Below, piece after piece: positions 1,441 through 55,486 of a stretch of 64,000 nt of DNA. The position numbers and the translations under genes were made by a program. The stretch's first letter is position 1, and each line of letters opens with the position of its first letter. The stretch spans positions 62,001 through 126,000 of the forward strand of contig JAHHHN010000011.1 of the NCBI GenBank assembly GCA_019359325.1, written 5' to 3'. Below the pieces are notes generated by a model. That model saw nothing but the letters and a program-made list of their open reading frames with translations, did no database searches and was not told the DNA's origin. This DNA comes from Mojavia pulchra JT2-VF2. Lineage in GTDB: Bacteria; Cyanobacteriota; Cyanobacteriia; Cyanobacteriales; Nostocaceae.

Positions 1441-3672
1441 TCAACCGAACTTGCCAGCGGTAGAGGCAATTAAAAAGGCTGCGTAGGTGAGGACATAGCC
1501 AACGGTGAAGTGAGCTAGACCAACCAAACGACCTTGAACGATAGACAGAGCAACGGGCTTATCTTTCCAGCGAACCAGGTTAGCTAGAGGAGTACGCTCA
1601 TGTGCCCAGACAAGGGTTTCAATCAACTCTTGCCAGTAACCTCTCCAGGAGATGAGGAACATGAAGCCTGTAGCCCAAACTAGGTGTCCGAACAGGAACA
1701 TCCAAGCCCAGACAGATAGGTTATTCACACCGTAGGGGTTGTATCCGTTAATCAACTGAGCGGAGTTAGCCCAGAGATAATCACGGAACCAGCCCATGAG
1801 GTATGTGGAATTTTCGTTGAACTGAGCAACGTTTCCTTGCCAAATACCTAAGTGCTTCCAGTGCCAGTAGAAGGTTACCCAACCTACTGTGTTTAATGCC
1901 CAGAAGAGTGACAGATAGAAGGAGTCCCAACCAGAGATGTCGCAAGTACCGCCACGACCGGGGCCGTCGCAAGGGAAGGCATAGCCGAAGTCCTTTTTAT
2001 CGGGCATCAGCTTGGAACCACGAGCATCCAAAGCACCCTTGACCAGAATCAAGGTAGTGGTGTGGAGACCCAAGGCGATCGCATGGTGTACCAAGAAGTC
2101 ACCAGGGCCAATTGTTAAGAAGAGGGAGTTGGTGCCAGAGTTAATGGCATCCAGCCAGCCACTCAACCAAACGTTACCGTAGTTGGGGTAGGCTGTGTAA
2201 GCAATACTATCAGGGTTAGACAGTAGGGTGTTTAAGCCGTACAGTACTTTTCCGTGAGAAGCTTGAACGAACTGAGCAAATACTGGCTCAATTAGGATTT
2301 GTTTTTCAGGAGTACCGAAAGCAACCACTACGTCGTTGTGAACGTACAAACCAAGGGTGTGGAAGCCTAAGAAGAGAGATACCCAGCTGAGGTGGGAAAT
2401 AATCGCTTCTTTATGCTTCAGCACGCGGTCGAGTACGTTGCCTTTGTTTTGTTCGGGGTCGTAGTCACGAACCCAGAAAATCGCACCGTGAGCAAAAGCA
2501 CCAACCATCAAGAAAATAGCGATGTACTGATGGTGAGTGTAAAGAGCTGCTTGGGTGGTGTAATCCTTAGCCATGAAGGCGTAAGGAGGTAGGGCATACA
2601 TATGTTGAGCCACCAAGGAGGTAACAGTTCCCAGCGCAGCTAGGTGAATACCCAACTGAAAATGCAGGGAGTTGTTATAGGTGTCGTATAGCCCTTGGTG
2701 AGGCAGGTTGAACTGACCTTCACTCTTGCTTCCGGGTACTAAACCAGACTTGGAATTCAGCATTTCTTTGATGCTGTGACCAATTCCGAAGTTAGTCCGG
2801 TACATATGTCCGGCAATGATGAAGATAACAGCGATCGCCAAGTGGTGGTGAGCCATATCGGTCAGCCACAAGGATTCTGTTTGCGGATGGAAGCCACCCA
2901 AGAAAGTCAGAATCGCCGTACCTGCACCTTGAGATGTGCTGAATACATGACCTGCTGTATCAGGATTCTGGGCATAAACACCCCAGTTACCTGTAAAGAA
3001 TGGTGTCAAGCCTGCTGGGTGGGGCAGAGTGGTAAGGAAGTTATCCCAACCTACGTGCTGTCCGCGAGATTCGGGGATTGCAACGTGAATCAAGTGTCCG
3101 GCCCAAGCCAAAGAACTGACACCAAACAGGCCTGCTAAGTGGTGGTTCAGGCGAGGTTCAGCACTCTTAAACCAAGAGAGGCTAGGACGGAACTTAGGCT
3201 GCAAGTGCAACCAACCAGCAAACAAGAACACTGCTGCCAACAGTAGGAGGAACACTGAACCTGTGTACAATTCAGTATTTGTCCGCATACCGATGGTGTA
3301 CCACCAGTGATAAACACCAGAGTAAGCAATATTTACAGGATTGCTAGCGCCACCTTGGGTAAAAGCTTCGATTGCTGGTTTACCGAAGTGGGGGTCCCAA
3401 ATTGCATGGGCGATCGGACGAATATGAACAGGATCTTTAATCCACTGTTCAAAGTTACCTTGCCAGGCTACGTGGAACAGGAGGCTGGAAGCCCACAGGA
3501 AAATGATTGCCACATGACCGAAGTGAGTAGCGAAAATCTTTTGGTAAAGATTTTCTTCTGTCATGCCATCATGGCTTTCAAAGTCGTTGCCTGTGGCGAT
3601 CGCATACCATATCCGACGTGTAGTCGGGTCCTGTGCGAGATCCTGGCTAAATTTTGGAAATTTTGTTGCCAT
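1441..3672 (-). CDS. psaB: Photosystem I P700 chlorophyll a apoprotein A2
   Basis: This 743-residue integral thylakoid protein is one half of the PSI reaction-centre heterodimer. It binds the P700 chlorophyll pair, antenna chlorophylls, phylloquinone and, jointly with PsaA, the FX 4Fe-4S cluster. The start [20 protein letters not shown] is the standard PsaB N terminus. The FX loop [19 protein letters not shown] supplies Cys568 and Cys577. Numerous HH pairs and about 11 hydrophobic helices are visible. Length matches the family. It lies 128 bp downstream of psaA on the same strand, as in the usual psaAB operon, and an AGAGGAA motif precedes its start. Confidence 0.99.
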
Positions 3673-3718
3673 AGGTTTGATAATTCCTCTGACCTTTAGC
3701 CATCAGGTATCAGCATAT

Positions 3719-3786
3719 GGAGTTTTGAGTCTGAGTTCTGAGTTTTGATTGGGCACTCAACGCTCAGTACTCAGCACTCAGCACTC
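3719..3786. repeat. Short tandemly repeated repeats in the psaA-psaB spacer
   Basis: The spacer is largely made of degenerate 7-bp-like units (CTGAGTT, CTCAGTA, CTCAGCA, CTCAGCA). The same family recurs at about 24458-24490. Such short tandem repeats are characteristic of heterocystous cyanobacterial genomes. Here they separate two genes that are normally co-transcribed. Confidence 0.75.
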
Positions 3787-3800
3787 CATATAACTGATTG

Positions 3801-6059
3801 CTATCCTACTGAAAGAATGTGTGCGTGGAAGAAAGCCCAGGTGGTGGCAATTCCTCCTAAGAGGTAGTGAGCTACACCTACAGCACGACCCTGAATAATG
3901 CTCAGAGCGCGAGGCTGTATTGTTGGAGCTACTTTCAGTTTATTATGAGCCCAAACGATGGACTCAATTAGTTCTTGCCAGTAGCCACGACCACTGAACA
4001 GGAACATCAAGCTGAATGCCCAAACAAAGTGAGCACCCAAGAACATTAGACCGTAACCAGAAAGTGCACTTCCGTAGGAGTTGATTACTTGTGCAGCTTG
4101 TGCCCACAAGAAGTCACGCAACCAGCCATTGATTGTGATGGCACCTTGGGCAAAGTTACCACCAGTGATATGAGTCACATTACCAGCTGCGTCTACAGTT
4201 CCCCAAACATCTGATTGCATCTTCCAGCTGAAGTGGAAAATAGCAATTGAAATGGTGTTGTACATCCAGAACAGTCCGAGGAACACATGGTCCCAACCAG
4301 ACACTTGGCAGGTACCGCCACGACCAGGGCCATCGCAAGGGAAGCGGAAGCCCAAGTTTGCCTTATCTGGAATCAGACGTGAGCTACGAGCAAACAGGAA
4401 TCCTTTTAACAGAATCAGCACTGTGACATGAATCTGGAATGCGTGAATGTGGTGGATCATGAAATCCGCCGTACCCAACGCAATCGGCATCATTGCCACT
4501 TTGCCGCCTACTGCCAAAATACCGCCGCCAAAAGCATAGCTTACTGGTTCGAGGGCATTAGGAGCAGTGCCACCAGGAGCCAGGGTGTGCAGGTTTTGCA
4601 CCCACTGAGCAAATACTGGTTGTAACTGAATTGCCGTATCCGAGAACATATCTTGGGGACGTCCCAAGGCACGCATTGTGTCATTGTGTACGTACAGCCC
4701 AAAGCTATGGAAGCCAAGGAATATACATACCCAGTTGAGGTGAGAGATGATAGCATCTCTGTGACGAAGCACCCGATCCAGCACGTTATTTTGGTTCACT
4801 ACTGGATCGTAATCGCGCACCATGAAGATGCTAGCGTGAGCAGCACCACCCACAATTAGGAAGGCACCGATCCACATATGGTGAGTGAATATGCACAATT
4901 GCGTTGCATAATCAGTTGCCAAATATGGATATGGAGGCATCGCGTACATGTGGTGTGCCACGATGATGGTTAGCGAACCCAGCATGGCAAGGTTAGTTCC
5001 CAACTGAGCGTGCCAAGAGGTGGTCATGTTTTCGTAGAGACCCTTATGTCCTTCACCAGTGAAAGGACCTTTGTGGTTTTCTAGGATCTCTCTGATACTG
5101 TGACCAATACCCCAGTTAGTACGGTACTGATGTCCGGCAATGATGAAGATAACAGCGATCGCCAAGTGGTGATGAGAAATATCTGTCATCCACAAGCCGC
5201 CTGTTACAGGATTCAGACCGCCCTTGAAGGTGAGGAAATCAGCGTACTGGCCCCAGTTCAACGTCCAGAAAGGAGTTAAACCATTGGCAAAGCCAGGGAA
5301 CAGGTCGATCAACAAGTCTTTGTTCAGGATGAACTCGTGGGGCAAGGGGATATCTTTTACAGCTACCCCTGCATCCAACAGCTTGTTGGTCGGTGCTGAC
5401 ACATGAATCACGTGACCAGCCCATCCCAAGGAACCACAACCTAACAACACTGCTAAGTGGTGATTCAGCATTGACTCTACGTTCTGGAACCATTCCAGTT
5501 TTGGAGCGCGCTTGTGGTAATGGAACCAACCGGCAAACAGGAATAAGCCTGCCAGTACCAAGCCGCCAATGGCAGTTACGTAGAGCTGGAATGTGTTTGT
5601 AATACCCCAGCCACGCCATACTTGGAACAAGCCAGAGGTGATTTGAATACCGTGGAAGCCACCGCCAACATCACCATTTAAAATGTCTTGTCCCACAATG
5701 GGCCAAACGACTTGAGCACTAGGCCTTACATTCAAAGGGTCGCTCAGCCAAGCTTCGTAGTTGGAAAACTTAGCGCCGTGGAATATCATCCCGCTCAGCC
5801 AAATCGTCACTATTGCTAAGTGGCCGAAGTGTGCTGCGAATACCTTGCGGGAGATGTCTTCTAGATCGCTTGTATGTGTATCAAAATCGTGGGCGAGGGC
5901 ATGCAGGTTCCAAATCCATGTGGTGGTTTTGGGACCTCTAGCTAAAGTTCTGTCGAAGTGTCCGGGTTGTGCCCATCTCTCAAATGAGGTAGGTACAGGG
6001 TCTTTATCGACTATCACTCTTGCCTTTTTTTCCTCTCGCTCCGGAGGACTAATCGTCAT
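3801..6059 (-). CDS. psaA: Photosystem I P700 chlorophyll a apoprotein A1
   Basis: This 752-residue PSI core subunit is the partner of PsaB. It binds P700, antenna pigments and half of the FX cluster. The N-terminal stretch [20 protein letters not shown] is typical of cyanobacterial PsaA. The FX-binding loop [19 protein letters not shown] supplies Cys575 and Cys584. Length is as expected. The start is supported by a strong GGAGGT ribosome binding site about six bases upstream (plus-strand 6062-6070). It is the first gene of the psaAB unit; its promoter should lie in the 534-bp spacer to the next gene. Confidence 0.99.
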
Positions 6060-6593: not shown

Positions 6594-8282
6594 ATGGACA
6601 GTTTGATACAAAATAATCTGTCAGTTGTTAAAGGCTATCACTGGGTGGAAGGCATGAAAATGTGGCAGAAGACGGTGTTAGAGAATCTCCTTCCCAAGAG
6701 ATTCGCTCTTTTTAGATGGTTAATAACATTGTTACTAGCCTTGAGTTTGGTAAGCTGTGGCGAGAAAGCTGTAAGCCAAGACGTTTCTGTTAGCAGCTAT
6801 ACAGGAAGTCCACAGCAGATTTCCAAAGAATTTTCGGAAGTTGCCCCACCTAGTACTATTCAAGAACTACGCTCAACCCTAGAGGTTTATCAGCCACAGG
6901 TAAGTATAATTACACCGCAAGCTGAAGAAGTCTTGAAAGACAACAAAGTTACAGTTCGCTTCCAAGTTAAAGATTTACCAATATTTAAAGACCCGAAACT
7001 CGAATTAGGGCCTCATCTTCATGTAATTGTTGACAATCAACCTTACATAGCTGTTTACGACTTAAATCAGCCCTTAGCGTTACCAGACTTGTCTCCTGGT
7101 ACTCATACTTTGCGAGTCTTTGCCTCTCGCCCTTGGCATGAAAGCTTTAAAAATGAAGGCGCTTACGCCCAGACAACATTTCACATTTTAAGCAAAACTG
7201 ATGACAACAACCCCGATCCAGCCCTGCCTCTGCTAACCTACAGCCGTCCTAAAGGGGATTACGGGGCAGAACCGATACTACTGGATTTTTACCTGACTAA
7301 CGCGCCACTGCATCTCCTTGCTCAAGACAACTCCAAGAATGAATTCAGTGATTGGCGCATTCGTTGCACAATAAATGGTGAAAGCTTCGTTCTTGATCGC
7401 TGGCAGGCAATTTACCTCAAAGGCTTCAAACCAGGTAAAAATTGGGTCAAGCTAGAATTTCTCGATAACCAGGGTAATCCTGTAAAAAATGTCTTTAACA
7501 CCACAGTTGGGCTGATTAACTACCAGCCAAACGGTAAAGATACTCTGGCGAGAATTGTCAGAGGCGAACTCAAAGCTGATGAGGTACGCGGTATTGTAGA
7601 CCCGAATTATACTGCCAAGATACCAGCGGCAGAACCAGCGCCCACACCTACGCCTACTGCTACTCCTAAGGTTGAAATCACACCCGAAACACAACCACAA
7701 GAAGAAAAGCAGCCACTTCCAGAAACTGAGATTCCAATACCTCAAACACAACCAACTGAGTTAAAACAGCCAACGGTTGTGCCATCCCCCAGCTTAAGTC
7801 CTACGCCGGAACCAATTAAACCACCAAAGGCGACACCAGAACCACAGCCAGAGGTAACGCCAACACCTGAAGCTACTGAGTTACCCGAAAAAGTGGCTCC
7901 TCAACCAGACAAACGAAAATTTGGTGGGTATTTCCAGCGTCGTCCGCGTCCAACTGCTGTACCATCTCCCAGCTTGCCACCGACACTGCCAGAGGTTATT
8001 GAGTCTCCTGTACCAGAACCAACTGCACCACCAGAGGCGACACCAGCACCACAGCCAGAGGTAACGCCAACACCTGAGACTACTGAGTTACCTGAAAAAG
8101 TAGCTCCTCAACCAGAAAGACGAAAATTTAGCGAATATTTCCAACGTCGTCCGCGTCCAACTGCTGTACCATCTCCTAGTTTGCCACCGACATTACCAGA
8201 AATTATTGAATCTCCCGTACCAGAACCCCAGCTAGAGGTAACGCCAACAGGTGAGCAAACTAATGAACAGCAAGGGAGCTAA
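6594..8282 (+). CDS. Pro/Thr/Glu-rich lipoprotein with 69-residue tandem repeats
   Basis: This probable exported lipoprotein has a basic, hydrophobic leader (FRWLITLLLALSLVSC) with lipobox Cys about residue 54. The most likely start is the internal ATG at 6654 or 6660, just after a GGAAGG, because the ATG at 6594 has an AAGGAGG 27 bases away. A globular part follows (about residues 90-330, with Ig-like beta motifs such as LGPHLHVIVDNQPYIAVYD). Then comes a long low-complexity tail rich in PTPTP, PEPQPEVTP and the element RRPRPTAVPSPSLPPT. The tail contains a 207-bp unit repeated from 7842 and 8049 plus a partial third copy. It may span or bind the cell wall; the function is unknown. Confidence 0.85.
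   Translation: MDSLIQNNLSVVKGYHWVEGMKMWQKTVLENLLPKRFALFRWLITLLLALSLVSCGEKAVSQDVSVSSYTGSPQQISKEFSEVAPPSTIQELRSTLEVYQPQVSIITPQAEEVLKDNKVTVRFQVKDLPIFKDPKLELGPHLHVIVDNQPYIAVYDLNQPLALPDLSPGTHTLRVFASRPWHESFKNEGAYAQTTFHILSKTDDNNPDPALPLLTYSRPKGDYGAEPILLDFYLTNAPLHLLAQDNSKNEFSDWRIRCTINGESFVLDRWQAIYLKGFKPGKNWVKLEFLDNQGNPVKNVFNTTVGLINYQPNGKDTLARIVRGELKADEVRGIVDPNYTAKIPAAEPAPTPTPTATPKVEITPETQPQEEKQPLPETEIPIPQTQPTELKQPTVVPSPSLSPTPEPIKPPKATPEPQPEVTPTPEATELPEKVAPQPDKRKFGGYFQRRPRPTAVPSPSLPPTLPEVIESPVPEPTAPPEATPAPQPEVTPTPETTELPEKVAPQPERRKFSEYFQRRPRPTAVPSPSLPPTLPEIIESPVPEPQLEVTPTGEQTNEQQGS
7842..8260 (+). repeat. Two-and-a-bit tandem copies of a 207-bp coding repeat
   Basis: Copy 1 starts at 7842 and copy 2 at 8049, each opening with the same 20 bases encoding PQPEVTPTPE. 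Each copy encodes TELPEKVAPQP, a (K/R)RKF..YFQRRPRP basic element, and PSPSLPPTLPE(V/I)IESPVPEP. A truncated third copy begins about 8220. The copies differ at scattered positions, consistent with an older duplication. Confidence 0.85.
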
Positions 8283-36544: not shown

Positions 36545-38245
36545 ATGATGCTCAATTTATTAGACAAGATCGGTGATTGGAATCCCCAACTTTTACGTGA
36601 ACTCAAAGGCCGTTTAAAATCACGTAATATATTGTTGGCAATTGCTATTTCTCTGCTGGGTCAATTTCTAATTTTTATGGTTTGCCAAATCGAGCTACCA
36701 ACTCGTAATACAGTATTTCAAGGTTATTCTAATAAATATTGTACGGGAGAGATGCTCTACAATTTACCAAAATGTATTAAGGATGAATTTGGTAATGTGG
36801 TTGTCAATTGGCAATTGTGGTCGCTAGATTTATTTACACATTTGAGTATTATTGGCACTTTTACACTTTTAGTAGCAGGAACTTATCTACTAATCAGTGA
36901 TTTGGCTTCTGAAGAACGGCGTGAAACACTCAATTTTATTCGCCTTAGTCCCCAATCGCATCAAAGTATTTTCTCAGGCAAAATTTTGGGTGTTCCTATT
37001 TTGCTTTATGTTGTAGTACTACTAGCTGTTCCTTTGCATTTATGGTCAGCTTTAAATGCTAAAATTTCTTTGCAACTAATCTTAAGTTTTTACGCAGCTG
37101 TGGTTGCTGCTAGCATTTTATATTATAGTGGTGCATTGCTATTTGGCTTAGTTAGTTCTTGGTTGGGTGGTTTCCAAGCTTGGTTAGGTAGTGGCGTAGT
37201 TTTAGGATTTCTCCTAATCAGTCTGCGATTAGTCATGCCGGAAATATCAGATGATTATCCACTTGTTTTTTTGAGGCTGGTTAACCCTTGTTATTTAATT
37301 CCTAATGCAGACATGAGTTCTGTATTCAGGCCGATTAGTTCAAGACTTACTAATTTCCATTGGTTTGCTTTACCTTTAGGCGATAGTGTTGTAAATACGC
37401 TTGGCTTTGCTCTATCTATTTACGGTATAGGAACATATTTTATCTGGCAATCTTTACAACGTTGCTTTCGTGACCCTAATACTACTATGTTGAGCAAGCA
37501 GCAGAGTTATTTATTAACGGCTTGTTTTACAGTTATTACTTTAGGTTGTGCGAATTGGCAAAAATTAGCATTCGATGATTCTCCTGGTTCATATCTACTG
37601 GCCGAAAATATTGTGTGCTTATTTTTCTTGAATTTTTGGCTATTATTATATCTCATTGCTGCTCTTAATCCTCATCGCCAAATACTACAAGATTGGGCAA
37701 GATATAAACGGACTTCTACTAGCAAAGGCTTGGTTAATAGTACATTATTTCAGAATTTAATTTGGGGTGAAAAGAGTCCAGGATTAGTAGCGATCGCCAT
37801 AAATGCAATGATTGCTATTATCGGTTTATGTGGATTAATATTCCTCTCTCGTGTCCCCCTTGATAACAAAATTAATGCTATTTTCGCTCTGGCTTTAGCT
37901 GGGAGTTTAGCTATGATATATGCAGCCTTAGCTCAACTACTTTTATTCAGCAAAAATAAGCATAGAGTATTTTGGACTAATGCTACCATCGCTGCTGTAA
38001 TTGTATTACCAGTGATAATTATGGCCATCTTTTCTTCTTACTCCAGAGACAACAATTTTCTCTGGCTGTTTTCAATACTTGCACCAATTTATGCCATTTC
38101 TCCTGAAGCCAACTCACTGTCACCGATAAAAGCATTCCTAGCCATACTTGTTCATTGGAGTACTCTAGGTTTATTAGTTTTTCAACTAAGGCGAAATTTG
38201 AGAAAAGCAGGAGAGTCAGCTACAAAAGCACTGCTTGCAAGTTAA
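36545..38245 (+). CDS. ABC transporter permease
   Basis: This 566-residue membrane protein has about twelve hydrophobic segments. It includes the ABC-2-like block LLISDLASEERRETLNFIRLSPQS near residue 125, where the ATPase typically contacts the permease. It starts MMLNLLDKIGDWNPQLLRELKGRLKSR, a pattern known from cyanobacterial ABC-2 permeases. It forms an operon with the ATPase upstream. Confidence 0.9.
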   Translation: MMLNLLDKIGDWNPQLLRELKGRLKSRNILLAIAISLLGQFLIFMVCQIELPTRNTVFQGYSNKYCTGEMLYNLPKCIKDEFGNVVVNWQLWSLDLFTHLSIIGTFTLLVAGTYLLISDLASEERRETLNFIRLSPQSHQSIFSGKILGVPILLYVVVLLAVPLHLWSALNAKISLQLILSFYAAVVAASILYYSGALLFGLVSSWLGGFQAWLGSGVVLGFLLISLRLVMPEISDDYPLVFLRLVNPCYLIPNADMSSVFRPISSRLTNFHWFALPLGDSVVNTLGFALSIYGIGTYFIWQSLQRCFRDPNTTMLSKQQSYLLTACFTVITLGCANWQKLAFDDSPGSYLLAENIVCLFFLNFWLLLYLIAALNPHRQILQDWARYKRTSTSKGLVNSTLFQNLIWGEKSPGLVAIAINAMIAIIGLCGLIFLSRVPLDNKINAIFALALAGSLAMIYAALAQLLLFSKNKHRVFWTNATIAAVIVLPVIIMAIFSSYSRDNNFLWLFSILAPIYAISPEANSLSPIKAFLAILVHWSTLGLLVFQLRRNLRKAGESATKALLAS

Positions 38246-48078: not shown

Positions 48079-48960
48079 ATGACTAAAGAAATATCAATTA
48101 CAGGTAAAACTAAGCTTTTAGGAGTGATTGGGCATCCGGTGGAACATTCATTGTCGCCGGTAATGCACAATGCTGCGATCGCTCAGTTGGGATTAGATTA
48201 TGTTTATCTTCCATTTCCCATAGAACCACAAAATTTAGAAGTAGCGATCGCAGGTTTTGCTGCGGTAGGAGTTGTCGGCTTTAGTGTGACAATTCCTCAT
48301 AAACAGGCAATTATGCCCCTACTCTCAGAAATTACCCCTTTGGCTCAAGCTATAGGCGCAGTGAATACTGTCACCCGCAAGGATGATCAATGGGTGGGAA
48401 CAAACACAGATATAGAAGGATTCATCGCCCCACTGCAAACAACATATCAGCAAGATTGGAGTCAGAAGGTAGCAGTAATTTTAGGCAATGGTGGTGCAGC
48501 TAGGGCAGTTGTAGCAGGTTGTAGCCAGCTAGGTTTTGCTGAAATTCATGTCGTTGGGCGCAATGAGCAAAAGTTAAAAGAATTCCAAAATAGCTGGGGT
48601 ACACCCCTAGCTGAGAACTTGCAAGTGCATACATGGGAGAAACTAGCACAACTGATTCCCCAAGCTAACTTGCTAGTTAACACAACTCCTATTGGTATGT
48701 ATCCCAAGGTAGATGAATCTCCTTTAAGTGCAACGCAAATGGAGAATTTACCAACAGAAGCGATCGCCTATGATTTGATATATATACCTCAACCGACACA
48801 ATTTCTCCAACAAGCTCAAAAACAAGGTGCAATTGCGATCAATGGATTAGAAATGCTTGTCCAACAAGGAGTAGCAGCATTAAAAATCTGGTTACAACAA
48901 GAGAATGTACCTGTAGAAGTGATGCGCCAAGCACTGCGAAATCATTTAGGTTTAGGATGA
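48079..48960 (+). CDS. aroE: Shikimate dehydrogenase
   Basis: This NADPH-dependent enzyme reduces 3-dehydroshikimate to shikimate. The 293-residue protein shows GHPVEHSLSPVMHN (substrate serines), the catalytic Lys in TIPHKQAIMP, TNTDIEGF and the NADP motif VILGNGGAARAVV. The C terminus has NGLEMLVQQGVAALKIW. Length is normal. Its last nine bases overlap the end of the convergent sensor kinase gene. Confidence 0.97.
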   Translation: MTKEISITGKTKLLGVIGHPVEHSLSPVMHNAAIAQLGLDYVYLPFPIEPQNLEVAIAGFAAVGVVGFSVTIPHKQAIMPLLSEITPLAQAIGAVNTVTRKDDQWVGTNTDIEGFIAPLQTTYQQDWSQKVAVILGNGGAARAVVAGCSQLGFAEIHVVGRNEQKLKEFQNSWGTPLAENLQVHTWEKLAQLIPQANLLVNTTPIGMYPKVDESPLSATQMENLPTEAIAYDLIYIPQPTQFLQQAQKQGAIAINGLEMLVQQGVAALKIWLQQENVPVEVMRQALRNHLGLG

Positions 48961-50619
48961 ACGCTCCAACGACAAAGTTAATGGTAGCTGGACTGTGAAG
49001 CTTGTCCAGCCTTGAGCGCTAGTCACTGCGATCGTGCCTTGAATATATTTGACTAGCTTCTTCACCAATGCCAGCCCCAATCCTGCACCGCTAGGTTGCC
49101 ATGTACTACTAATCGGTATCTTTTTAATCAGGTTAGAAATAGGAGGTTGTTCTGTTGTATTCCTATTAGGAATTCGGTAAAACGGTTCAAAGATGCGAGA
49201 TTGTTCATTGCTAGGAATTTCTACCCCAGAATTGCTGATTGTAATTTGAAAGCTCGGAATTTGAGTATCTTGATTTATTATGCTAGTTGGGTTTTGGACG
49301 AGGTGGACAGTTACCGTAATCTGTTCTTGAGGAGGAGTGTATTTGCAAGCATTGTTGAGTAACTCCGACACAATTTGAGTCAGGATACTTAAGTCTGAAA
49401 TCAGAGGTGGTAAGTCTGGATGAATGTTAAGCTCTAAAATTTGTTGTTTAGCTTGAGCTAGTTCTTGAAAACCTTCAGCAATATGAGGTAGCCACAATTG
49501 AAGTTGAATCGAAGTCAATTCCAATGGATACATATCTGCATCAATGATTCGCATCTTCAGCAAATCATCGACCAGATTTAACTCTCGTTCGCACTCAGAA
49601 CGTAGAATACCCAGGTAGCAAGATACAGACTCAAGTTTAGAAGATGCTTCTAATTGTCCTATTTCCTGCTGATCAAGAATATTTTCTAGTAAAGAAATTG
49701 TCATTTTGATATTTGACAAGGGCGTTCGCATTTCATGAGAAGTGGCTGCCAATAGATCCACTTTCAACTGGTTCAGTAGTTGGAGTTCCGTTATTTGCAT
49801 TTCTAGTTTTCGGGTACGTTCAGCCGCGAGGTTGCGTTCTTCGGTTAACCTGCGTTGGGTGTCATCCCGAAAAACCATGACAGCGCCTGTAATCGCACCG
49901 TTGTTGTCTCTTAGGAGAGTAGCGCTATCAGCTACAGGTATCTTTGTTCCATCCTTGGCAATTAGTAGAATGCGATCGCTTAAATAAATAGTGGTTTCTT
50001 GTTGGAAGGCCCAGATGATGGGATTTTCTACTCTTAGCTGAGTTTGTTCATCAATGAGTTGAAAAACATCGTCTAACATTTGGTCTTTCGCTTCATCCAG
50101 TCGCCACCCTGTGAGTGCTTCCCCTGCCTGATTCAAGTACTTGACGCGTAACTGTGGATCTACCACAATCACCCCGTCCCCCATACCTCGAAGCACACTA
50201 CTCAAAAATTGCTCGCGTTCATAGCGATTGAGTGCTGTTTGAATAGCAACATACAGTTCTTGCTCCCTCACAGGTTTGAGAATGTAACCAAAAGGTAATG
50301 TCAGCGTTGCCCGCTCTACAGTACTTTTATCAGAGTGCCCTGTAACGTAGATAACGGGAATTTGTAAACGATTCCAGATGTGTTCTGCTGCTTGGATGCC
50401 GTCCATTTCGCCCCGCAGCCGAATATCCATTAAAATCAAGTTTGGGCGCAGTTTGTTTGCTTTCTCAATTGCTGCTTCTGCGGAATCTGCGATATCTACG
50501 ACCCTGTATCCTAAAGACTCTAAGCTTTCTTGTAAATTGATAGCCAGAATATACTCATCTTCAACAACAAGAACCCGAATCGTCTTTGTTGTCTGCGTGT
50601 TTGATGAGATATTGGTCAT
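48952..50619 (-). CDS. Hybrid response regulator/histidine kinase (REC-PAS-HisKA-HATPase)
   Basis: This 555-residue protein begins with a receiver domain (about residues 14-130). Its phospho-acceptor Asp is in LILMDIRLRGEMDG and the conserved Lys in ILKPVRE. A PAS domain follows (about 133-255), then the dimerisation helix with His in ATSHEMRTPLSN (about 296), and an ATPase domain with ELLNNACKYTP and GAGLGLALVKKL. There is no membrane segment. It starts 2 bp after the larger sensor kinase stop, so it probably receives a phosphate from that kinase via its own receiver and signals on. Confidence 0.95.
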   Translation of the reverse strand: MTNISSNTQTTKTIRVLVVEDEYILAINLQESLESLGYRVVDIADSAEAAIEKANKLRPNLILMDIRLRGEMDGIQAAEHIWNRLQIPVIYVTGHSDKSTVERATLTLPFGYILKPVREQELYVAIQTALNRYEREQFLSSVLRGMGDGVIVVDPQLRVKYLNQAGEALTGWRLDEAKDQMLDDVFQLIDEQTQLRVENPIIWAFQQETTIYLSDRILLIAKDGTKIPVADSATLLRDNNGAITGAVMVFRDDTQRRLTEERNLAAERTRKLEMQITELQLLNQLKVDLLAATSHEMRTPLSNIKMTISLLENILDQQEIGQLEASSKLESVSCYLGILRSECERELNLVDDLLKMRIIDADMYPLELTSIQLQLWLPHIAEGFQELAQAKQQILELNIHPDLPPLISDLSILTQIVSELLNNACKYTPPQEQITVTVHLVQNPTSIINQDTQIPSFQITISNSGVEIPSNEQSRIFEPFYRIPNRNTTEQPPISNLIKKIPISSTWQPSGAGLGLALVKKLVKYIQGTIAVTSAQGWTSFTVQLPLTLSLERSS

Positions 50620-50621
50620 GT

Positions 50622-53600
50622 TTATGCCCTATTTTTTGTAAAAGTAATTTTAAATTCTGTTCCCTGCTGGCATTTAATTTCAAGCGTTCCCCTTAGTTGC
50701 TTGACTAACCCCTGAACAAGGTTTATACCCAGTGTTTTAGCTTTCTTGCTATCAAAGTTTTCAGGAAGCCCAACACCATTATCTCGAATAATGAGTATCA
50801 AATTTTGGTTGTATTGTTGATATAATCTGACCTGAATTTCACCTTCACGATGAACAGGAAAAGCATATTTCAAAGCATTAGAAACTAGTTCGTTGATAAT
50901 CAAACCACAAGGAATGGCAGTTTCAATGTCTAACTTAGCATCATCAACTTGAATATTCAATCGAATATCGCTGGATCTGTCATTATAGGAATCGAATAAA
51001 TGAGTTGTTAAATCAGGAATGTATTGAGCGAAATTAATATCGGCAAGCTCTTCAGAACGGTATAGTTTTTCATGAACCAAAGCTATAGAAGCAATTCTGT
51101 TTTGACTATCGCGCAGGATTGCAATTGCTTGCGGCTCTTTTGTACGTCTGCACTGCATCTCCAGCAAACTGCTGACAATTCCTAAATTGTTCTTCACGCG
51201 ATGGTGGATTTCTTGAAGTAATACCTCCTTTTCTTTGAGAGATGCTTTAATTTGTTCGTCTGCTTGCTTGTGTTCGGTAATGTCTTGTTGAACGGCAACA
51301 AAAACGTTTCCAAATTCAGGATGCTCAAAAACAGATGTGGCGGCGCGACACCAAAAGGAAGTGCCATCTTTCTTCACATTATGGACTTCGTAACTTGCTT
51401 CACCGTGTTTCAGAATCGTAGCCATAATCGCCTCTGTCACCTGTTCAGAAGTACTGTATTCCTCTTCGTAGTTGAGAATTGATACATGCTGACCTGTGAG
51501 TTCACCATCTTCATAGCCAAACATTTGCTCAAATTTATGATTGGCGTAGACAATAATTTTATCAGCGGCTCGAATTAAGCAAATTCCCTCTGCTACATTG
51601 CGAGTGATGATTGCTTGCAACTCCAACATCTTTTCAGCACGTTTGCGTTCTGTAATTTCTACCACAACAATGCCCAGACCAATGGGTTGATCGGCTTCAG
51701 ACTCAATTGCAAAGTAAGAAGCTAGCCAAGTCCGGATCACACCAGGCAGTTTTGGAGTTTCTCCACTGATCTCAAAATCTAAAATTGGTTCACCCGTTGT
51801 CAGAACATACCGGAAGACCTGTTCCTGCTTTGGTGCTATATCAGGGACAATCTCCCACACTGTCTTGCCAATATGCATTGCTGCTGGAATGCCATTCATT
51901 TCCGCCAATGCCTCATTGATTAACGAGTAACGCAGTTGCTGGTCGAGGACGGTTATACCAACAGGTGCGCTAGTGATAAAGGCATCCAACAACTCTTGCT
52001 TGTGAGCTAGTTCCCGCTCTAGAATTTTACGCTCTGTAATGTCAATTGCTACTCCTCCAACTAATTTTTGTTCAGATAATCCAGGAATCGGAAATTTATA
52101 TACCAAGAACTCACCGAGGGTGCCGTCTGTTCGGGGAGCTACCTCAATCACCCCAAGAACCTGATTTGTCTCAGCAACTATTAGACTGTTACTCATAAAC
52201 TGTTGAGCAATCTCAAGCGGGTAGAGGTCAAAAATAGACTGTCCGATCGCCTGATTAGGTAATAATTCAAATGTCCGCAGGTAGCTTTGACTTAAGTAAA
52301 CTACACGCCCAGTTGCATCCGTAATCCAAGCTAGTGCTGGGCTGTTGTCCATAAATGCCTGAAAGCGAGCTTCACTTTCTTGCAAAGCTTCTTCTGTACG
52401 TTTGAGTTCAGTCATGTCCCGAATGCTAACTAATACACCTGAGATGGTTTGGTCTGCTTCGAGGTAAGGTGCATAGGTAATATTTAAAAATTGAGATTCT
52501 TTATCTGGATAGTTAAACCACATTTCATATTGAATCTTCTCTCCAGCCAAACACTTATTTAACCGGGGTTTAATGACGCTCTCAAACATCTCCTGCCCCA
52601 CAATTTCATCCAGACAATGCCCGACAATTTCTTCTTTAGGCTTGCCACACCAATTCTGATACGCTTGATTCACCACCTGATAAATATAATTGCGATTCAG
52701 CAGCGAAATAGCATCCGTCGTTGTAGCTACAATTCGCTCATATCGCCGTAGTGATTCTTCCGCCAGTTTTTGCTCGTTGATATCAATGATTACACCTAGC
52801 ATCCGTATTGGGTCGCCTGCTTCGTTGTAAATTCCGCGTCCTTTGCCAAGCAGCCAGTGAACCTTGCCACTTGGATGAATTACACGATGTTCGGCTTCAT
52901 AATTAGTATGTTGTTTCAGCGCCTTGAACAAAATCTGTTGAACTTGGTCAACATCTTCTGGATGAATAGAATCACGCCATAGCTCAAATGAGGGTGTTGC
53001 TGTTTTTGGCTCTAACCCTAGCAAGCGAAAGTGGTTGTCGTTCCAAATTACTTCTCCTGTTTGAAGATTCCAATCCCAGATACCAATGTTTGTAAACTCC
53101 AAGGTTAGCCGGAATTGCTCTTCACTTTTGGCTAAGGCTGATTCGGCTTGTTTGCGATCGCTAATATCCCGATGAGTACCAGCCATTCGTAAAGCTCTGC
53201 CATTGTCATCACGCATTACAACCTTGCCATAGTCTGCAATCCATTTCCATTCACCAGACTTGGTTCCCAGTCGATAGTCAAATTTGTAGGGTACTGAGTT
53301 GTCCTTGAGATGGGCTGCCAAAATTTTCTCAACCCAAGGTTTATCATCTGGATGAACTAATCGCTCCCAGGTACTCAAATTCTTTGGGAGTTCATCGCAG
53401 CTATATCCGAGCATTTCCAGAAAGCAGGGGCTATAATACACCTCTTGAGTTACGAGATTCCAGTCCCAAAAACCATCTCCAGAAGCTTCAAGAGCCAGTT
53501 GCAGACGTTCCTCACTTACTTGCAGGGCTATCTGTGCCTGTTGGCGTTCGGTGACATCCTGGGCAGTTCCATAAAGACGGATGACCTGTCCTTGTGCATT

Positions 53601-54752
53601 AAATTCTACATTTCCAATGGCCTCGAAATAGCGATAAGAGCCATCTGGCTGAGGTACACGTAGAATTAGCTTGTAGGACTCGCCAGTTGCGATCGCTCGT
53701 TCTACGGCTTGGTGGAGTTTTTGCCGATCCTCTGGGTGGTATAACTCAAGCAGTTCCTTATAGTTTGGCTCTAGTTGGGCTAAATTTCGATTGAAGAGGC
53801 TGAAAAGCTCTTTTGACCAGGTAAGTTTGCCAGTGGCAAGATTATGCTCCCAATTACCAAGGCGAGCGACTCGCTGAGATTCTTCTAGGAGGGCTTCACT
53901 TTTTCGTAGTGTTTCTTCAGTATGCTTGATTTCGGTTACATCCACCACCAATCCATCGCATACCACACGTCCATTCGGCAACTGACGTGGGGTGGAACGG
54001 AAATGTAACCATTTCAGCTGACAACTGGGTGTTTTGATTTGCAGTTGAATATCAAATACAGATAGATTCCTCACAGACTCTTCAACGCCTGCCTGAAAGC
54101 GGGCAGTATCCTCTGGGATAAACTGGCGATACAGCAAACTTGGATCTCTAAGAGCATCTTCAGCACTGACTTCCATCAGTCTTTCAATCCCTGCACTGAG
54201 GTAAGAGAAGCAATCGCTGCCATCCAGTTCGCGGATCGCCTGATAAACTGCGCCATTGGGCAGGTTATCCCCAATTCTCCGCAACATTGCTTCACGCTCA
54301 TACAAGGCGAGTTCTGCCCGTTTGCGATCGCTGATTTCACGCTCTAGTTCTCGGTTAGTTGCTTCCAGTTGTGTAGGACTGGGGAGGGCAAGTGCCTTTG
54401 GCACCAATGGTATCAGAGCAAAAGCTGTATACAGTGAAATTAATGCGGTGATGGCTTTAATAGAGCCACTTAGCCAATAGGTGGGATGCCAGAGTGTCCA
54501 AATTTCCATTAAGTGGGTGGTACCACAAGTAACGATAAATGTGGCAAACAGCAGAAACATCCAGTTAAATGGTAAGCTTTGGCGCTTGCGGACAAGATAA
54601 AGCAGCGTGATGGGAATTGAATAATAAGCAAGTGCAATTAAACAGTCGGATACAATATGTAGCCCTACTAACTCCGGTTTCCAGAGGTAGCAATGACCGT
54701 GGGGAATAAACTGTTTAGAAGTAAGGAAAGTTCTTAAAAGTTCCAGCATCAA
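50622..54752 (-). CDS. Ethylene-receptor-like multi-PAS histidine kinase
   Basis: This is a 1376-residue sensor kinase. The N-terminal 120 residues hold three membrane helices and match the plant ethylene receptor domain. Residues equivalent to the ETR1 ethylene/copper site are all present at a constant offset of 11: Asp36, Tyr43, Ile46, Pro47, Ile73, Cys76 and His80 (context TCGTTHLMEIW). Eight PAS/PAC domains follow (about 150-1150). The C-terminal HisKA_2/HWE-like part has the His in LQEIHHRVKNN and the ATPase ELVSNALKYAF and GVGLP. The second kinase gene follows 2 bp downstream. Ethylene or a similar small ligand is the likely input; PAS domains may add others. Confidence 0.92.
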   Translation of the reverse strand: MMLELLRTFLTSKQFIPHGHCYLWKPELVGLHIVSDCLIALAYYSIPITLLYLVRKRQSLPFNWMFLLFATFIVTCGTTHLMEIWTLWHPTYWLSGSIKAITALISLYTAFALIPLVPKALALPSPTQLEATNRELEREISDRKRAELALYEREAMLRRIGDNLPNGAVYQAIRELDGSDCFSYLSAGIERLMEVSAEDALRDPSLLYRQFIPEDTARFQAGVEESVRNLSVFDIQLQIKTPSCQLKWLHFRSTPRQLPNGRVVCDGLVVDVTEIKHTEETLRKSEALLEESQRVARLGNWEHNLATGKLTWSKELFSLFNRNLAQLEPNYKELLELYHPEDRQKLHQAVERAIATGESYKLILRVPQPDGSYRYFEAIGNVEFNAQGQVIRLYGTAQDVTERQQAQIALQVSEERLQLALEASGDGFWDWNLVTQEVYYSPCFLEMLGYSCDELPKNLSTWERLVHPDDKPWVEKILAAHLKDNSVPYKFDYRLGTKSGEWKWIADYGKVVMRDDNGRALRMAGTHRDISDRKQAESALAKSEEQFRLTLEFTNIGIWDWNLQTGEVIWNDNHFRLLGLEPKTATPSFELWRDSIHPEDVDQVQQILFKALKQHTNYEAEHRVIHPSGKVHWLLGKGRGIYNEAGDPIRMLGVIIDINEQKLAEESLRRYERIVATTTDAISLLNRNYIYQVVNQAYQNWCGKPKEEIVGHCLDEIVGQEMFESVIKPRLNKCLAGEKIQYEMWFNYPDKESQFLNITYAPYLEADQTISGVLVSIRDMTELKRTEEALQESEARFQAFMDNSPALAWITDATGRVVYLSQSYLRTFELLPNQAIGQSIFDLYPLEIAQQFMSNSLIVAETNQVLGVIEVAPRTDGTLGEFLVYKFPIPGLSEQKLVGGVAIDITERKILERELAHKQELLDAFITSAPVGITVLDQQLRYSLINEALAEMNGIPAAMHIGKTVWEIVPDIAPKQEQVFRYVLTTGEPILDFEISGETPKLPGVIRTWLASYFAIESEADQPIGLGIVVVEITERKRAEKMLELQAIITRNVAEGICLIRAADKIIVYANHKFEQMFGYEDGELTGQHVSILNYEEEYSTSEQVTEAIMATILKHGEASYEVHNVKKDGTSFWCRAATSVFEHPEFGNVFVAVQQDITEHKQADEQIKASLKEKEVLLQEIHHRVKNNLGIVSSLLEMQCRRTKEPQAIAILRDSQNRIASIALVHEKLYRSEELADINFAQYIPDLTTHLFDSYNDRSSDIRLNIQVDDAKLDIETAIPCGLIINELVSNALKYAFPVHREGEIQVRLYQQYNQNLILIIRDNGVGLPENFDSKKAKTLGINLVQGLVKQLRGTLEIKCQQGTEFKITFTKNRA

Positions 54753-54877: not shown

Positions 54878-55486
54878 CTACTTCTGCGGCCAGCGCCAAT
54901 TGTAGCGATTCCATTCATAGATGCCTTGAATTTCATACTCACCGCCGTTATAGAAGCGAACAACGCAATTGGTGCATGAATCATTGCCATCCCTGATTTC
55001 ATCCACCTGAATCACAATGCAGGGGAACCATTCACGCTTACAGGGGCCATCATCTTGTACCCATTCCCATAGTGCATTGGAAATTTCAATGCGATCGCCT
55101 AGTCTCAGTTTCAGTGCATCCTCAAAATAAGCATATTTATCAAAATGATATGACTGAACACGATTTAACCACTGTAGACCATAGCGCTCCCGGATAAATT
55201 GTACTTCTCCAGAGTCATTCTCATGCAGCCAATCGTTGAGTAGTTGCACTTTCCAAGTGCGGTTGTATTGTTCCTGTGTCTTGACGAACTGTAAAAATGC
55301 TTCCAATTCTTCTGCGGTAAGATCGTCTAAGGGATTGGCAATATCTGACACCCCATTAGAATTTCCCTGAATTTGCTCGACCGCTTGCAGTAATATCTGT
55401 TTCTGCCTATCAGTGAGAGGACAGCTGGCTACATCACAACTTTTAAAGGCTGCTTGCAAAGCTGCTTCAATCTCATCTGGAGTCAT
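54878..55486 (-). CDS. Cyanobacterial protein of unknown function
   Basis: This 202-residue acidic soluble protein has an N-terminal helical part LTDRQKQILLQAVEQIQG, then LDDLTAEELEAFLQFVKTQEQ. The C-terminal half reads VRFYNGGEYEIQGIYEWNRYNW and contains several cysteines (DDGPCKREWFPCIV, DSCTNCVV) that might bind metal. I recognise no family. It lies 126 bp upstream of the sensor kinase gene's 5' end, on the same strand. Confidence 0.75.
   Translation of the reverse strand: MTPDEIEAALQAAFKSCDVASCPLTDRQKQILLQAVEQIQGNSNGVSDIANPLDDLTAEELEAFLQFVKTQEQYNRTWKVQLLNDWLHENDSGEVQFIRERYGLQWLNRVQSYHFDKYAYFEDALKLRLGDRIEISNALWEWVQDDGPCKREWFPCIVIQVDEIRDGNDSCTNCVVRFYNGGEYEIQGIYEWNRYNWRWPQK

Follow-up and report, generated by a model that had tools for sequence, protein, structure and literature searches.

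An ethylene-receptor-type sensor kinase and an adjoining receiver-kinase gene in the cyanobacterium Mojavia pulchra JT2-VF2

The 64,000-nucleotide stretch of Mojavia pulchra DNA that was analysed (the window) carries a gene for a sensor kinase with an ethylene-receptor-type N-terminal domain. Next downstream, in the same orientation, lies a gene for a second kinase, with a receiver (REC) domain in its N-terminal part. The ethylene-type domain retains an intact binding site, the gene pair is conserved, and the ethylene head is interchangeable among related kinases. The locus is best read as an ethylene/copper input module on an older relay from a HisKA_2 kinase to a REC kinase, and the second kinase most likely passes the receptor's signal on. 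Of all parts of the locus, the most telling is this adjoining REC-PAS-kinase, which an earlier, sequence-only reading of the window overlooked; as an ethylene receptor the Mojavia protein is otherwise ordinary.

Table 1. Positions in the window of the receptor gene, its partner gene and their domains.
Feature	Position	Strand	Residues and remarks	Basis
Receptor kinase gene	50622..54752	-	1376 aa; start TTG 54752, ATG alternative 54749	ORF
ETR1_N ethylene-binding domain (predicted)	54384..54671	-	aa 28-123	Pfam, alignment, model
Eight tandem PAS domains	51243..54305	-	aa about 150-1170	each segment above PAS cutoff
HisKA_2 phosphoacceptor domain	50985..51212	-	aa 1181-1256; HHRVKNN motif, His1183/1184	Pfam and motif
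HATPase_c catalytic domain	50637..50903	-	aa 1284-1372	Pfam
Partner gene, 2 bp downstream of receptor	48952..50619	-	REC-PAS-HisKA-HATPase_c, 555 aa	Pfam
Partner REC domain	50242..50574	-	aa 16-126, Asp65; phosphoacceptor role proposed	Pfam
Partner HisKA domain	49549..49764	-	aa 286-357, His295	Pfam

The receptor and its seven-residue site

The Pfam family ETR1_N (PF25487) matches the N-terminal part of the receptor at 144.2 bits against a cutoff of 27 (E = 1.5e-42). An AlphaFold2 model of residues 1-131, built with 44 homologues, contains three long helices (26-56, 63-88 and 92-122) at a mean pLDDT of 70.8, which is of medium confidence, and the head thus modelled has the three predicted transmembrane helices characteristic of the ethylene receptor family. 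The eight PAS domains and the HisKA_2-type kinase of the sequence-only reading are both borne out: residues 150-1170 were divided into eight segments and scored against curated PAS-family cutoffs, each of the eight matching a PAS family above cutoff, and Pfam places HisKA_2 and HATPase_c at the C-terminus. No GAF domain is found in the receptor with Pfam at E 0.01. Among the 25 of 35 NCBIfam families listed, the generic PAS sensory-box domain is the one model above its cutoff and none names a function, and searches of solved structures with the single sequence or a profile return no sequence match at E up to 10. PAS8 was also considered as a photosensory LOV domain, an idea that was dropped because no LOV cysteine motif is seen in it by eye.

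Alignment with Arabidopsis ETR1 (residues 1-129) reveals a three-helix binding domain in common, with 37 of 96 positions identical and no gap over ETR1 17-76. The ETR1 residues D25, Y32, I35, P36, I62, C65 and H69, which are required for ethylene binding, correspond to D36, Y43, I46, P47, I73, C76 and H80 of the receptor at a constant offset of 11. An ATG immediately follows the TTG start codon; if translation begins there, the protein would lose one residue and the offset would be 10. The alignment score is 193, compared with at most 73 in 2000 shuffles within helices and loops, in which no more than three of the seven residues are matched, and at most 59 in 500 full shuffles. Because both the score and the complete match lie far beyond the shuffles, the correspondence arises neither from misalignment nor from chance; the seven identical counterparts claimed from the letters alone are confirmed, and misalignment, the failing named in that claim, is not seen. 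Published receptor work likewise speaks of seven ethylene-binding residues, in agreement with this set. In the model, D36, Y43, I46 and P47 are located on the first helix and I73, C76 and H80 on the second, and their helix-turn spacings appear to fit one face. The sequence evidence supports homology of the Mojavia receptor with true ethylene receptors and an intact binding site.

The stretch FIPHGHCYLW before helix 1 (54681-54710, residues 15-24) hardly varies among the sampled cyanobacterial sequences, with Cys21 and His18 each present in 71 of 72, and its conservation exceeds that of two of the seven binding residues. It is presumably absent from plant ETR1.

The ETR1_N domain is present in 90 of 386 cyanobacterial genomes, which span 62 of the 143 genera and carry between 1 and 9 copies each. 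Seventy-four of these 90 genomes were read at the best-scoring place (the other 16 are listed as having no usable place), and in this sample, which favours high-scoring domains, the best-scoring copy carries all seven residues in 65 genomes. The remaining nine have NYIPICH (four), a change at the Pro47 position (three), a change at the Cys76 position (one) or a missing first part (one). All seven are also found in 115 of 126 distinct domains of a second set, which is biased to close relatives and partly overlaps the first. The intact site is therefore ordinary in cyanobacteria, and the earlier view that full conservation is rare outside true receptors does not stand.

Changes recur in otherwise good domains at the positions of Asp25 (to Asn) and Pro36 (to Ser, Ala, Gly or Thr), at loci L067, L128, L130, L131, L135, L138, L165, L193-L195, L203 and L204, and the ligand could be tuned or altered in these proteins. 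Four of the five ETR1_N genes in the Mojavia genome keep all seven residues. The fifth (L009:2632-4356, contig C16) reads DYVAFCH, with three of the seven lost, and retains HisKA, HATPase_c and REC domains; its product is possibly a non-ethylene or dead receptor.

The partner gene and the conserved pair

The Mojavia pair consists of a HisKA_2/HATPase_c kinase gene and an adjacent same-strand REC-kinase gene, whose REC domain would be the phosphoacceptor for the receptor kinase. Pairing was examined with one best-scoring receptor gene from each of the 74 genomes, HisKA_2 being assigned at more than 100 bits by BLAST. All 13 genes combining the ethylene-binding domain with HisKA_2 have next to them, downstream on the same strand, a gene for a REC protein that matches the Mojavia REC domain at 92-244 bits, and 0 of the 61 other genes with the ethylene-binding domain have a downstream REC match of 90 bits, the highest being 47.

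Among 61 distinct HisKA_2 kinases, a REC neighbour accompanies 40 of the 41 headed and 18 of the 20 head-less ones, the latter having been picked mostly as best matches to the Mojavia kinase. Pairing as an ethylene-specific trait was therefore rejected: it is general to HisKA_2 kinases and says nothing on ethylene as such. The phospho-His motif is present in all 41 headed kinases and the REC Asp motif in all 40 partners, 32 of which contain a HisKA H-box, indicating a kinase module. The partner outputs differ, being a second kinase in Mojavia and L053, REC-AraC in L184 and REC-PAS-GGDEF-EAL in L268. One headed relative of the Mojavia kinase (L093:10001-13072) runs directly up to an aroE-like gene with no partner in between, and the partner gene seems to have been lost there.

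The kinase family and its N-terminal heads

The Mojavia genome contains only two HisKA_2 kinases. The second, on contig C29, has the order PAS-PAS-GAF-HisKA_2, without ETR1_N, and here too a REC-PAS-HisKA gene comes next. In a tree of 59 kinase domains, which does not distinguish gain of the ethylene head from its loss, the head label requires 7 changes, at least 4 of them forced by starred branches. The Mojavia kinase belongs to a starred clade of 10 rows, seven with the head and three without. The three head-less members (L264-L266) form a starred subclade, and they are 78-81% identical to the Mojavia protein in the kinase and 86-89% in the partner REC domain; L265 carries two CBS domains at its N-terminus and no ethylene head. 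The pairs of L264-L267 and L231 share the kinase class and partner type of Mojavia, but have no ethylene head. An aroE-like downstream gene is common to the headed relatives L052, L053, L093 and L116, and the Mojavia aroE is a shikimate dehydrogenase by Pfam; no aroE match is present within the fetched stretches of L264-L266.

These comparisons are consistent with a more general proposal, which we put forward tentatively: cyanobacteria may wire ethylene into a kinase-to-kinase cascade by means of an exchangeable head on a conserved relay from HisKA_2 to REC-PAS-HisKA. In evolution the head would have been gained, lost or exchanged (for CBS domains, among others) and the receiver output changed (a second kinase, an AraC regulator or GGDEF-EAL), while the pair of kinase and REC was kept.

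The same comparisons bear on a different interpretation, in which the ethylene-type domain is a membrane anchor and dimer module, or responds to copper, redox state or some other small molecule, the true input coming through the PAS domains. In its favour, the same kinase and partner occur in L264-L266 with a CBS head or no membrane head at all, the residues at the D25 and P36 positions are repeatedly replaced elsewhere, nine of 74 sampled genomes are without the full set, and one Mojavia ETR1_N domain has lost three of the seven residues. However, all seven residues are intact in the Mojavia receptor, and homologues with this residue set are reported to bind ethylene experimentally in other bacteria, namely AzoEtr1 of Azospirillum, which binds it directly (PMC11819568), and SynEtr1 of Synechocystis (PMC6682694). 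This interpretation is thus rather unlikely, though it has to be taken seriously, and the eight PAS domains may still dominate the input of the receptor.

It is improbable that receptor and partner are mere neighbours, with the receptor acting on an orphan regulator encoded elsewhere and another kinase controlling the partner. HisKA_2 kinases may have several possible receivers, but the close same-strand order is maintained in 40 of 41 headed HisKA_2 genes, and in several of these pairs the ends of the two genes overlap.

Known receptors and the probable signalling route

Knowledge of ethylene in cyanobacteria comes mainly from Synechocystis, whose single receptor is linked with light and with a transcription factor. 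The locus L184 encodes ETR1_N-PAS-PAS-GAF-HisKA_2 with an adjoining REC-AraC gene, and the related locus L197 has a DUF4388-REC gene farther downstream. This anatomy agrees with that of UirS, UirR and LsiR as described for Synechocystis (PMC5812497), and on it rests the identification of these loci as UirS/SynEtr1-like. L184, L197, L199 and L202 are relatives of the SynEtr1/UirS type, and since L184 also carries HisKA_2, this kinase class is shared with the known cyanobacterial type of ethylene receptor.

Like the Mojavia locus, SynEtr1/UirS (slr1212) and UirR (slr1213) of Synechocystis combine ETR1_N and HisKA_2 with a REC gene directly downstream. Of the features that set the SynEtr1/UirS subgroup apart, the Mojavia receptor has HisKA_2 and lacks GAF and an adjacent REC-AraC gene: the SynEtr1 type possesses PAS and a GAF photosensor with a REC-AraC partner, whereas Mojavia has eight PAS domains, no GAF and a REC-PAS-HisKA partner. 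A dual light/ethylene phototaxis receptor equivalent to SynEtr1/UirS would share the ethylene-binding domain, kinase class and adjoining REC gene, but is largely refuted by the absence of a GAF/cyanobacteriochrome domain, by a partner with a kinase where the SynEtr1 type has an AraC-type DNA-binding domain and by the UirS-like kinases forming a starred clade of their own with a long branch, and we regard it as very improbable. A role in phototaxis or in pili, raised in the sequence-only reading, accordingly finds no support, the GAF photosensor and REC-AraC partner of the Synechocystis system being absent.

Arabidopsis ETR1 contains a GAF domain, a classical HisKA domain and a fused receiver, with no PAS array and no HisKA_2. 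The statement that the output differs from plants therefore holds for the comparison with plants, but HisKA_2 does not set the receptor apart from the cyanobacterial type, L184 having it too. GeiEtr1 and GeiEtr2 of Geitlerinema are reported to carry, like Mojavia, a cyanobacterial ethylene-binding domain with all seven residues; unlike in Mojavia, the kinase comes after GAF or PAS-GAF, with a receiver fused in GeiEtr2 (PMC6682694). The proteobacterial AzoEtr1 likewise has all seven residues, but is 525 aa long, compared with 1376 aa and eight PAS domains in Mojavia (PMC11819568). That such a receptor integrates several signals is plausible but generic, and a review already describes the outputs of prokaryotic proteins with ethylene domains as highly varied and suggests that these proteins may combine more than one input (PMC7700396).

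In our preferred reading, receptor and partner probably form a two-gene signalling unit of this large-genome cyanobacterium, with the receptor as its membrane sensor. The three N-terminal helices would form an ethylene-receptor-type site in which, by homology, Cys76 and His80 most likely hold Cu(I) and ethylene is bound. Occupancy of the site would alter the signal that the HisKA_2/HATPase module receives through the eight PAS domains, and with it the autophosphorylation of that module. By analogy with SynEtr1, ethylene may lower the output of the receptor; in the published Synechocystis model, receptor signalling is inhibited by ethylene (PMC6508509). Phosphate would then pass from the HisKA_2 kinase to Asp65 of the partner REC domain, and the phosphorylated REC would switch the partner's own PAS-HisKA-HATPase kinase, which would act on a third regulator as the putative final target.

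Judged by titles and the openings of abstracts, the literature on ethylene receptors (HisKA_2/HWE, PAS, slr1212 orthologues, Nostoc) does not describe this pair, and a receptor wired to an adjoining REC kinase has apparently been undescribed until now. The Mojavia locus would represent a second type of wiring, one that is widely conserved and sets the receptor opposite another kinase, and the closely related head-less and CBS-headed versions offer natural controls for the contribution of the ethylene domain.

A link to viruses was rejected, viral contigs containing no relative of the ETR1_N domain, and the matches in a plasmid collection are all below 60% identity and uninformative. Three open reading frames in the window have no Pfam match at E 0.001: 6594-8282 (+), 36545-38245 (+) and 54878-55486 (-). 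Elsewhere, locus L178 carries tandem ethylene-domain genes on one strand (304-1845 and 1954-5025), and similarly close pairs are also listed in genomes G129, G099 and G336.
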